In this document: positions 478 through 3,225 of the stretch, in pieces | Layout of the letters: each line of letters starts with the position of its first letter | Numbering within the stretch: position 1 is the first letter of the stretch | IMG/VR virus record: IMGVR_UViG_3300027770_000108 | Coordinates: 1-40,628 of that record | Strand: one strand, 5' to 3' | Source: a virus | DNA: 40,628 nt | Notes under the pieces: generated by a model | What the model was told of the DNA's origin: nothing | What the model saw: the letters and a program-made list of their open reading frames with translations, nothing else | The model's database searches: none | Made by a program: the position numbers and the translations under genes

Positions 478-499
478 GAAGTAACTGCGAGGCGAAGAG

Positions 500-533
500 G
501 CTCACTCCCTACGGGGAGTGGGCTTCTTTTTTT
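500..533. terminator. Bidirectional intrinsic terminator after the lysis cassette
   Basis: The stem GCTCACTCCC pairs with GGGAGTGGGC around the loop TACG (one G-T wobble) and is followed on the + strand by CTTCTTTTTTT. It ends the late/lysis transcript coming from the end of the window. The minus-strand gene at 532-768 stops inside the T-run, so the same hairpin can end that transcript too. Confidence 0.85.
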
Positions 534-768
534 ATGCCATTTTATCGGCAGGACAGGGAATCGTAACTAGATTTCCACAACTAGCGCAGGTTCCATCAAG
601 GAACCACCAGACTATCTCGGAATCCTCAAAGCTTGCCATAACCTGGAAGACCTGTGACCCACAGGTACATACGTGAATGGGTCCTAAACCTCGCAAATCG
701 GCCCCAAAGGGCTTAGGAATGGCACTCCAGAGCTTAAACACGGACAGTCTGGGTAAGCGAAATTGCAT
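532..768 (-). CDS. Small zinc-ribbon protein, unknown function (78 aa)
   Basis: This 78-residue protein has a four-cysteine zinc-ribbon pattern: CTC near residue 34 and CASC near residue 61, about 24 residues apart, around an FEDSEIVWWFLDG core. The core resembles small CxCG...LDGxCxxCG proteins seen in actinophages; no function is known to me. It is the only minus-strand gene in the left arm and reads towards the lysis genes, sharing their terminator. It is divergent from the proteasome-like gene at 835. No Shine-Dalgarno sequence is visible before its ATG; the bases just upstream are AT-rich (TATCATATTAT), so a leaderless transcript is possible. Confidence 0.65.
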   Translation of the reverse strand: MQFRLPRLSVFKLWSAIPKPFGADLRGLGPIHVCTCGSQVFQVMASFEDSEIVWWFLDGTCASCGNLVTIPCPADKMA

Positions 769-834
769 ATAATATGATAACGCTACCCTTGTGTCGTGTG
801 ACTAGCGACACGCCGTTGCTGGTAACCTTGGTTT
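769..834. promoter_or_regulatory. Divergent intergenic region with an inverted repeat
   Basis: This 66-base gap separates the divergent genes at 768 (-) and 835 (+) and must hold the start signals of the left + operon. A perfect 6-bp inverted repeat GTGTCG-N9-CGACAC lies at 791-811 and could be an operator. On the + side TAACCT at 822-827 lies 7 bases before the ATG, as expected for a -10 box of a leaderless message, but no good -35 was found. On the minus side there is an AT-rich TATCATATTAT next to the ATG. The promoter assignments are weak; the inverted repeat is directly visible. Confidence 0.45.
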
Positions 835-1392
835 ATGACAACAATTGTGGGCATTGAAGGTATTGATTACGCATTACTGGTAGCTGACTCACAAATCACA
901 GAAGATAATCTAGTAACTCTTGCTACATCTACTCCAAAGGTAGTTGAGGTGGGCAAGTATCTCATTGGTATATCAGGTGATACCAGACCAGGTGACATCC
1001 TTGCCTACAACTGGAAGCCACCACTATACAAAGGTGAAGAGCCAGCACAATTTATGGGCCGCAAAATTATCCCAAGCATTATCCAAGCATTTACCGACAA
1101 CAACTACGACTACAACAAGGTGGACAAAGATGGTGGCTTCGATTATCTCATTGCTTTTAACGGCAATCTCTTTCGTATTGCTTGTGATCTCTCTTTTTTC
1201 CAAGCAAATCACGGAGCGTATGGCATTGGTAGTGGGGGTCAGCTTGCTCTTGGCTACCTGTATTCAACTATCAAACCTGATATGGACTTAGCCCACGCAA
1301 AGAGACACGCCCATAAAGCCGTTGAAATCGCTTCGGTTCTTGACGCTAATACTGGTAAGCCTTTACAGTTGGTAGTCCAGGAAAGGATGTAG
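835..1392 (+). CDS. HslV/proteasome-like Ntn hydrolase (185 aa)
   Basis: The protein starts MTTIVGI, so removal of Met exposes Thr1, the nucleophile of proteasome beta subunits and HslV. In that numbering Asp17 (VADSQ) is at exactly the canonical place, Lys34 (STPKV) matches Lys33, GIGSGG holds the Ser129-like serine, and Asp169/Thr172 (LDANTG) match the Asp166/Ser169 pair. Length (185) fits HslV or a single proteasome-like subunit without propeptide. It would be a self-compartmentalised threonine peptidase. No partner unfoldase (HslU, ClpX, Mpa) is encoded nearby, so it would act alone or with a host ATPase. It is the first gene of the left + operon. The family call is strong; the substrate is unknown. 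Confidence 0.8.
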   Translation: MTTIVGIEGIDYALLVADSQITEDNLVTLATSTPKVVEVGKYLIGISGDTRPGDILAYNWKPPLYKGEEPAQFMGRKIIPSIIQAFTDNNYDYNKVDKDGGFDYLIAFNGNLFRIACDLSFFQANHGAYGIGSGGQLALGYLYSTIKPDMDLAHAKRHAHKAVEIASVLDANTGKPLQLVVQERM

Positions 1393-1394
1393 CA

Positions 1395-1556
1395 ATGGAT
1401 CTCAATACATTTGATTATGTAGAACCAGAGTTCAAGAACGTTATAGCAACAGGTGAATACGCTGCACACTATTGGTTTGAGCAGGGTTGGAAGGCTTGTA
1501 GACTTGCTTTCTTACTGCACAAACAAGCAGAAGAAGCTGGAGCATTGAGAGTATGA
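1395..1556 (+). CDS. Small hypothetical protein (53 aa)
   Basis: This 53-residue, mostly alpha-helical protein starts MDLNTFDYVEP and includes AHYWFEQGWKACRLAF. It starts 2 bases after the stop of the proteasome-like gene (AGGA of the preceding codons serves as ribosome site) and its end overlaps the next ATG (GTATGA). I do not recognise a family; tight coupling on both sides supports it as real. Its position suggests it might be co-expressed with, and possibly act with, the Ntn hydrolase, but that is only inference. Confidence 0.6.
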   Translation: MDLNTFDYVEPEFKNVIATGEYAAHYWFEQGWKACRLAFLLHKQAEEAGALRV

Positions 1557-1639
1557 CAACATTTCTTATTGGTCTAATGGTTGGAATTATTATCGGCAGA
1601 GTCTTTGATTTATGGGCAGATTGGAAGTACAAGAAGTGA
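1553..1639 (+). CDS. Tiny single-span membrane protein (28 aa)
   Basis: It is a 28-residue peptide with one hydrophobic span (FLIGLMVGIIIG, about residues 4-15) and a basic end (WKYKK), so probably a type of small inner-membrane protein. Start overlaps the previous stop (ATGA) and its own stop overlaps the GTG of the nuclease gene (GTGA). The unbroken chain of start/stop overlaps is the main evidence. Function unknown. Confidence 0.5.
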   Translation: MTTFLIGLMVGIIIGRVFDLWADWKYKK

Positions 1640-2577
1640 CGGACCCAAAGGAACTATTACTTACTGCACTACGTGCAGGTGATGCTAAACGTTCACGTTC
1701 CACACAGGTACAGATTGGTCCATCAGAGTTAGGTGGTTGCCGTCGCAAGGTGTGGTACCGACTTAACGATCAACCTGAAACTAATGACAACGAATTAAAA
1801 CTTGCTGCCATTATGGGTACTGCTATCCACGCAGAAATTGAAAGAGCATTAGCAGATAATCCAGATGTATTAGTTGAAGTTGAAGCTGAATACAATGGAA
1901 TGAAAGCACACATTGACTGCTTTGTACCTGGTACTGGTGATGTCATTGACTGGAAGACAAGTAAGGTAAAGAACCTTTCATACTTCCCATCAACACAACA
2001 GCGTTGGCAGGTTCAGACCTATGGCTACCTACTGGCTAAGAATGGTCACAATGTAAAACGTGTCTCGCTTGTCGCCATTGCACGTGATGGTGATGAGCGA
2101 GATGTTAAAGTTCACACAGAAGACTACAACGAAGCAATGGCATTAGAAGCCTTAGTTTGGTTGGAAGGTGTGAAGGTATCTACCGAGGCACCAGAACCAG
2201 AGCGTGAAGAAAACTACTGCAAATTCTATTGCAAGTTCTATGACGCAAGTGGGCAGTTAGGATGCGTTGGTCTAAAAAAAGAACGTATCGCTAGTGAAGA
2301 GGTGTTAATCCAAGATAAGGATGCCTCAACTAATGCGATGATCTACTTACAATTAGATGAACAAATTAAAAACTTGACAAAGCAAAAGGATTCACTAAAG
2401 TCTTCCCTTGAAGGTATCGCTGGCGTTACCGATACTGGAATACAGGTGAGGTGGTCTAGCATAGCTGGACCAACATCAGTAGACAAAGATGAAGTACTTG
2501 CTAAACTAGGTTATGTACCTACCAAGCAAGGTGCAGATTCATTACGGTTAACAATCAAACAATCTGGAGGAAAGTAA
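1636..2577 (+). CDS. RecB/Cas4-like PD-(D/E)XK exonuclease
   Basis: This 313-residue protein has the motifs of the RecB/Cas4 nuclease family: GTAIHAEIE (about 61-69), the metal-binding aspartate in AHID (94), the core GDVIDWKTSK (101-110, D-x-K form) and the helix motif QVQTYGYLL (125-133). A cysteine near residue 35 (GGC) and three more in YCKFYC...GC suggest the 4Fe-4S cluster of Cas4/AddB-type nucleases. It probably resects DNA ends for recombination or replication. GTG at 1636 is preferred to the ATG at 1612 because it overlaps the preceding stop as GTGA and the family motif spacing needs no longer N-terminus. A zinc-binding DNA-associated gene follows directly. Confidence 0.8.
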   Translation: MTDPKELLLTALRAGDAKRSRSTQVQIGPSELGGCRRKVWYRLNDQPETNDNELKLAAIMGTAIHAEIERALADNPDVLVEVEAEYNGMKAHIDCFVPGTGDVIDWKTSKVKNLSYFPSTQQRWQVQTYGYLLAKNGHNVKRVSLVAIARDGDERDVKVHTEDYNEAMALEALVWLEGVKVSTEAPEPEREENYCKFYCKFYDASGQLGCVGLKKERIASEEVLIQDKDASTNAMIYLQLDEQIKNLTKQKDSLKSSLEGIAGVTDTGIQVRWSSIAGPTSVDKDEVLAKLGYVPTKQGADSLRLTIKQSGGK

Positions 2578-2955: not shown

Positions 2956-3225
2956 ATGCGGGAACCACACGAGTTTGAGGTTCCTTTATGTGCTCAGGTA
3001 GGTGGAGATCTTTTCTTTCCTGAAAGGGAGAACGAAGGCAAGCTTGCACGTCTGAGCATTGCATCAGCAAAATCAATCTGTCGTGGTTGTCAACACATCA
3101 CTGAATGTGCTGAGTGGGGTATCCGTAAGGAACGTCACGGTATCTGGGGTGGACTCACTGATAGTGAGCGAAAGAAGATACGCAATCAACGACGAATAAC
3201 ATTGGAAGAGGGGAAGAGTGCTTAA
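2956..3225 (+). CDS. whiB: WhiB-family iron-sulfur transcription regulator
   Basis: The 89-residue protein shows the complete WhiB signature: Cys12, Cys42, Cys45 and Cys51 in the pattern C-X29-C-X2-C-X5-C, then GIWGG at residues 62-66 and a basic C-terminal tail (ERKKIRNQRR) for DNA contact. WhiB proteins are confined to actinobacteria and their phages; they bind a 4Fe-4S cluster and act with the primary sigma factor. The phage copy could redirect or block host promoters. It starts 3 bases after the previous stop and overlaps the next gene by 8 bases, so it is made early with the replication proteins. Confidence 0.93.
   Translation: MREPHEFEVPLCAQVGGDLFFPERENEGKLARLSIASAKSICRGCQHITECAEWGIRKERHGIWGGLTDSERKKIRNQRRITLEEGKSA

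Follow-up and report, generated by a model that had tools for sequence, protein, structure and literature searches.

Introduction

HslV and the 20S proteasome work together with an AAA+ unfoldase, and the proteasomal ATPase docks on the rings formed by alpha subunits. To our knowledge, the functions of most proteasome homologs that stand alone are unknown. One of these, the bacterial protein BPH, forms a heptameric (tetradecameric) double ring with an elongated inner pore loop. BPH bound epoxomicin yet was inert on standard peptides and on casein, its Thr1 being exposed and intact (PMC5777263; PMC8665760), and no unfoldase was found for it in the genomes that bear it (PMC5777263). Connectase, which belongs to the same proteasome-like family, is a monomeric ligase (PMC8665760). 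Homologs from phages were named PPH and AAH in 2021 by Fuchs, Alva and Lupas; PPH is ~140 aa long and lacks helix H2, and no actinobacterial phage with AAH was reported in that work (PMC8665760).

Here we analyse a gene of this kind near the start of a viral DNA of 40,628 nt (IMG/VR record IMGVR_UViG_3300027770_000108, positions 1 to 40,628; hereafter the window). Such genes are already known from phages (PMC8665760), and PHROG 1040 names them. What is new here is the natural history of the gene: its prevalence, its single copy, and its deeply different versions at different places. Within a freshwater actinophage family that is common in IMG/VR, nearly all members carry the hydrolase. Since relatives are also carried by E7 and F5, two phages in culture with their host 'Ca. 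Planktophila' LanE-43, the role of a proteasome homolog without an unfoldase becomes testable in a small system. The gene also bears on the gap left in 2021, at which time AAH-type homologs had no known carrier among actinobacterial phages, although the hydrolase is no more than a possible AAH.

The hydrolase and its active site

The preliminary description of this DNA, made from its letters alone, proposed a proteasome/HslV-like hydrolase. Profile searches bear this out: the protein scores 45.9 bits on PF00227 (cutoff 22.4; E 6.5e-12) and matches PHROG 1040, 'peptidase HslV family', with an E of 3.6e-26, and all 54 aligned members of the family match PHROG 1040 as well. Judged from these matches, homology to the proteasome-like family is far beyond chance. 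Alignment, AlphaFold2 and Foldseek likewise reveal the features of that family, namely Thr1/Asp17/Lys33 with Gly47 and a beta-sandwich core with helices H1-H4.

The ORF is complete and the ATG at 835 is its sole start. We examined whether an upstream start codon could bury Thr1, a concern that the preliminary description had raised. An earlier start is ruled out because of the in-frame TAA, which only the codons CCT, TGG and TTT separate from the ATG. As a result, Thr directly follows Met and no propeptide is possible. With Met removed, the catalytic set comprises Thr1, Asp17, Lys34 (corresponding to Lys33 of the proteasome), Gly47, Ser132 within the GSGG motif, Asp169 and Thr172, so that every catalytic position listed beforehand is present. 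The alignment comprised 246 relatives, drawn from IMG/VR, from cultured phages and from one MAG. Thr1, Asp17, Lys34 and the oxyanion Gly47 do not vary among them, the conservation of Thr1 being partly ascertained, since MTTI began the patterns of one viral scan and of the GTDB scan and also one pattern of another scan. Thr1 was equally unvarying in the scan with the window protein, run with patterns other than MTTI. Position 132 is S, T or N and position 172 is T or S throughout, and position 169 is D in 197 of the 246 and N, S or T in the others. A median dN/dS of ~0.095 in the window's clade indicates purifying selection; values within the E7 clade are 0.08-0.13. The window holds no second copy of the gene, as two matched pieces belong to one ORF.

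Table 1. Features around the hydrolase gene; positions are counted from the first letter of the window.
Feature	Position	Strand	Basis
Terminator-like hairpin ending the lysis module	494..529	+	
78-aa cysteine-containing gene, divergent from the hydrolase operon	532..768	-	relative in E7/F5
Inverted repeat GTGTCG..CGACAC followed by GCCG; ACGACACGCCG nearly invariant in the clade	791..815	+	18 upstream regions aligned
In-frame TAA stop just 5' of the hydrolase ATG	823..825	+	sequence
Candidate -10 box TAACCT (TANNNT form), 6 nt before the ATG	823..828	+	clade comparison
Proteasome/HslV/BPH-like Ntn hydrolase, 185 aa, beginning Met-Thr-Thr-Ile, without propeptide	835..1392	+	PF00227, phrog_1040, AF2, Foldseek
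53-aa gene directly 3' of the hydrolase, shared by most clade members and absent from some	1395..1556	+	
28-aa peptide with one membrane-like segment	1553..1639	+	
Cas4-like/PDDEXK exonuclease, next large gene of the operon	1612..2577	+	phrog_1674, PF01930/PF12705
WhiB-like regulator, marking an actinobacterial host	2956..3225	+	WhiB-like neighbour cluster

Relation to described families

HslV (ClpQ) has the fold, the Thr-Thr N-terminus and the GSGG motif in common with the hydrolase, along with weak HMM similarity. However, the hydrolase reaches only 18.3 bits on the HslV model NF003964/TIGR03692, whose cutoff is 137, and the phage has no HslU-like partner (no PF07724 match in the window record). 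Actinobacterial 20S beta subunits (PrcB) share fold and active-site layout with the hydrolase, whereas the window protein has no match to the PrcB model TIGR03690, no propeptide and no alpha subunit beside it. Since the NCBIfam equivalog models (archaeal beta subunits, HslV) were matched only far below their cutoffs, the hydrolase is a relative rather than an orthologue of archaeal beta subunits and HslV.

PPH and AAH are likewise proteasome-like Ntn hydrolases of tailed phages, compact and without propeptide or companion AAA+ protein. In contrast to PPH, the window hydrolase has 185 residues and retains H2 (helix 70-88), and hence it is not a PPH. Its model, which ends at strand 178-183, has the compact group I architecture of AAH without S12/H5, and on this architecture the hydrolase is a possible AAH. 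Unlike the described PPH and AAH, the window-type hydrolase is carried by actinophages.

Predicted structure

According to the preliminary description, a predicted structure without the Ntn fold would have refuted its proposal; the model obtained is confidently of the proteasome-beta/BPH type. From the alignment of 54 sequences, AlphaFold2 modelled the window hydrolase with a pLDDT of 91.8 and a pTM of 0.87. Four helices (50-59, 70-88, 135-145 and 152-169) flank the sheets, and the last element is strand 178-183, with no further C-terminal helix. The best solved structure retrieved by Foldseek was BPH (5ovs, E 7.5e-12, TM 0.75), followed by 20S beta subunits and HslV (HslV TM 0.68-0.70). Likewise, the top PDB match by sequence profile was Cupriavidus BPH (5ovu, E 1.3e-14, full length). 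BPH, the best match by both routes and also a stand-alone protein without a known unfoldase, differs in being a bacterial gene and in having only ~20% identity to the window hydrolase.

The hydrolase of the E7 type was modelled with a pLDDT of 93.1 and has the same core as the window version. Its H3 and H4 are 9 and 11 residues long, compared with 11 and 18 in the window model, and because of this shortening the barrel may not be universal. The shorter helices would suit a highly specific Ntn enzyme that is no general protease, for instance a monomeric protein ligase or amidase resembling connectase. Connectase sets a precedent for a monomeric ligase within this family (PMC8665760), and the inertness of BPH on standard substrates points the same way (PMC5777263). 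Both modelled versions nevertheless retain H1 and H2, which connectase lacks, and neither displays the two-helix insertion of connectase. We consider such an enzyme improbable.

Unfoldase and ATPase partner

Profile searches with AAA_2 (PF07724) and AAA (PF00004) found no match in the window record, in agreement with the earlier statement that no unfoldase is encoded. A PF00004 match in E7/F5 was rejected as an unfoldase, since it falls in their DnaB-like helicase gene. The lack of an unfoldase of the phage's own is what would be expected if the hydrolase were a proteolytic core that degrades folded host proteins with a borrowed AAA+ unfoldase of the host (the proteasomal ATPase ARC/Mpa, ClpX or ClpC), as HslV and the 20S proteasome operate with theirs. 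Yet the phage encodes a beta-like subunit only, and the alpha subunits on which the proteasomal ATPase docks are absent. Furthermore, Table 1 of PMC8665760 does not list HslV for Actinobacteria, and therefore HslU is presumably absent there too; for BPH, no unfoldase was found in its genomes (PMC5777263). Borrowing of a host unfoldase is thus very unlikely in our view. The proteasomal ATPase in particular is an unlikely partner, and the suggestion that it might assist the hydrolase is weakened by the same observations.

Carriers and host

Scanning IMG/VR with the window hydrolase yielded 595 relatives, the best 80 of which are 89-100% identical to it. Among 25 long contigs of the actinophage family, picked by similarity of capsid or portal and not by the hydrolase gene, 22 carry exactly one stop-free copy. 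The siblings G025 and G027, which share the head module, have no hydrolase, and its absence from some siblings shows that it is not a strict requirement. It is a highly prevalent, replaceable, single-copy accessory gene.

As judged from gene content, the host of the window phage is an actinobacterium, because the window encodes a WhiB-like protein and homologs occur in the 'Ca. Planktophila' phages E7 and F5. The WhiB assignment is supported by PF02467 matches in close relatives behind L006 and L025. PF02467 also matched in 20 of 28 hydrolase carrier records across clades, and in a control set of 14 genomes only Corynebacterium glutamicum matched. The cultured phages LanE43-AprE7 and LanE43-AprF5 (records OX376640 and OX376641) infect 'Ca. 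Planktophila' (PMC10202952), and their hydrolase homologs are ~31% identical to that of the window. The search for similar genes in actinophages, which the preliminary description had called for, was in this way successful. The two records (L169 and L170 in our set) are filed as 'Caudovirales sp. ct2KA10' and unannotated, and are easily missed. In Actinomycetia phage DSL-LC01, a hydrolase homolog annotated as HslV adjoins a WhiB gene.

A single-pattern scan of GTDB retrieved one relative, on the contig JAURLY010000091.1 of a 'gammaproteobacterial' MAG. This contig, binned as Gammaproteobacteria (L251 in our set), carries WhiB-like and actinophage-type genes and is probably a mis-binned phage. 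A cellular origin of the hydrolase was considered and rejected, as this sole GTDB relative of the single-pattern scan sits on a phage-like contig.

Genome position and history

Backbone genes are colinear between the window and E7, with identities of 46% for terminase, 53% for portal, 43% for capsid, 40% for helicase and 42% for primase. In the window and in all of its 80 closest loci, the hydrolase heads the replication operon, which contains exonuclease, WhiB, helicase, primase and sigma factor genes. The two tiny genes described earlier as its companions in an early operon, of 53 and 28 aa, indeed come next; the operon is presumed to be early from its gene content. In contrast to this position, nearly all loci of the E7 type have the hydrolase directly 3' of the portal gene. 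In a third group (L185-L207) it separates terminase from portal and precedes scaffold and capsid. L239, L242 and L245 possess a related capsid gene, and counted from the start of that gene the hydrolase follows at 1.8 kb. Hydrolase relatives therefore occur both in early regions and in modules of head genes.

Positions inside head modules give weight to the main rival reading, a possible role in head maturation. The hydrolase would then be a head-morphogenesis or virion protease: it would process the scaffold, the portal or some other head protein, or would be packaged and injected, and the window gene would merely have moved off the head operon. No recognised head protease was found among the window's head-module genes that were searched, which is consistent with this role. 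Against it speaks that the hydrolase gene of the window and of its 80 closest loci opens the replication operon. In other carriers it lies amid genes of DNA metabolism, with RuvC and exonuclease genes in L224 and with genes for ligase and thymidylate kinase in Tunturi_5, which likewise speaks against a head role. Moreover, G025 and G027 have the same head module and no hydrolase, we noticed no capsid propeptide, with the window and E7 capsids aligning from near their starts, and nearness to head genes switched at least 6 times on well-supported branches of the tree. We therefore regard a head protease as unlikely.

Window-type and E7-type hydrolases are not sisters in the tree, in which the branch of the window hydrolase is long and its exact neighbour unsure. 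Other lineages fill both slots: G013 and G016, with backbones of the window type, have a version 51-54% identical in the early slot, and in G026, with a backbone of the E7 type, the slot after the portal gene holds a hydrolase of another lineage. For these reasons translocation of one gene between modules is less likely than independent acquisition or replacement, and from the tree sibling phages have apparently acquired different versions repeatedly. This apparent repeated acquisition, together with the single copy in each genome, speaks for selection on the activity itself and not on its genome position. That versions were swapped among few genome slots points to strong selection on the trait. 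As the single copy is near-universal, was apparently acquired more than once and occupies several positions, its job probably matters to infection.

Proposed function

We lean towards the reading that the hydrolase is an ATPase-independent oligomeric peptidase that cuts a few flexible proteins of the host or the phage. Methionine aminopeptidase of the host would expose Thr1, and the subunits would form a homo-oligomer that is probably a double ring, by analogy with BPH or HslV. In the window's phage the enzyme would be made at the start of infection. Without an unfoldase it would cut only peptides and unfolded or flexible segments; because of this limit it would act on specific proteins of the host (or the phage), a single one or a few. 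Intact catalytic residues do not prove proteolysis, since BPH is inert despite an exposed and intact Thr1. Relatives amid head genes in three phage groups also count against a peptidase directed at few flexible proteins, fitting a virion role equally well. From the earlier interpretation we retain the fold, the exposed Thr1, the actinophage setting, the lack of a phage unfoldase and the position at the head of the operon, and we hold the help of a host ATPase to be unlikely.

More tentatively, and with considerable doubt, the hydrolase may belong to a virus-restricted lineage that actinophages have repeatedly acquired as an ATP-independent enzyme for host takeover (or head maturation). If this holds, it would be the first case of a protease with the proteasome fold whose role in the life cycle of a virus is defined.

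Upstream elements and neighbouring genes

Across the clade, the element GTGTCG-N(6-9)-CGACACGCCG lies ~20 nt before the start codon of the hydrolase (791-834 in the window). It is followed by a TANNNT box that stands at a nearly constant spot, 12-13 nt before the ATG, throughout the clade, and no Shine-Dalgarno motif is present. The inverted repeat of the upstream element is a possible operator or promoter element. A sigma-70 scan did not have TAACCT at 823..828 among its matches. If this box served as a -10 element, the mRNA would be leaderless. The repeat, the box and the lack of a Shine-Dalgarno motif suggest an early promoter that is regulated and possibly leaderless. E7/F5 have a related motif, CGGCGTGTCG, in reverse orientation at the lysis/early junction, which in these phages does not hold the hydrolase gene. 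It is unlikely that the repeat is part of the hydrolase gene, as the related motif is kept in this intergenic region of E7/F5 without a hydrolase.

A relative of the divergent 78-aa gene lies near the hydrolase in several other carriers. Other small genes can replace the 53-aa gene after the hydrolase in the window's clade. Elsewhere, a family of 80-89 aa with the motif LVSEW.D.EG is encoded just 3' of the hydrolase (L169, 8033-8287; L236, 6177-6446). It occurs in part of the E7-type group and in the L236 group, whose genome otherwise differs, and database searches returned no confident match for it. This family is a possible partner, adaptor or inhibitor of the hydrolase. In the L185-L207 group, a metallo-phosphoesterase gene (L186, 4844-5998, and relatives) lies directly 5' of the hydrolase and recurs in other carriers.
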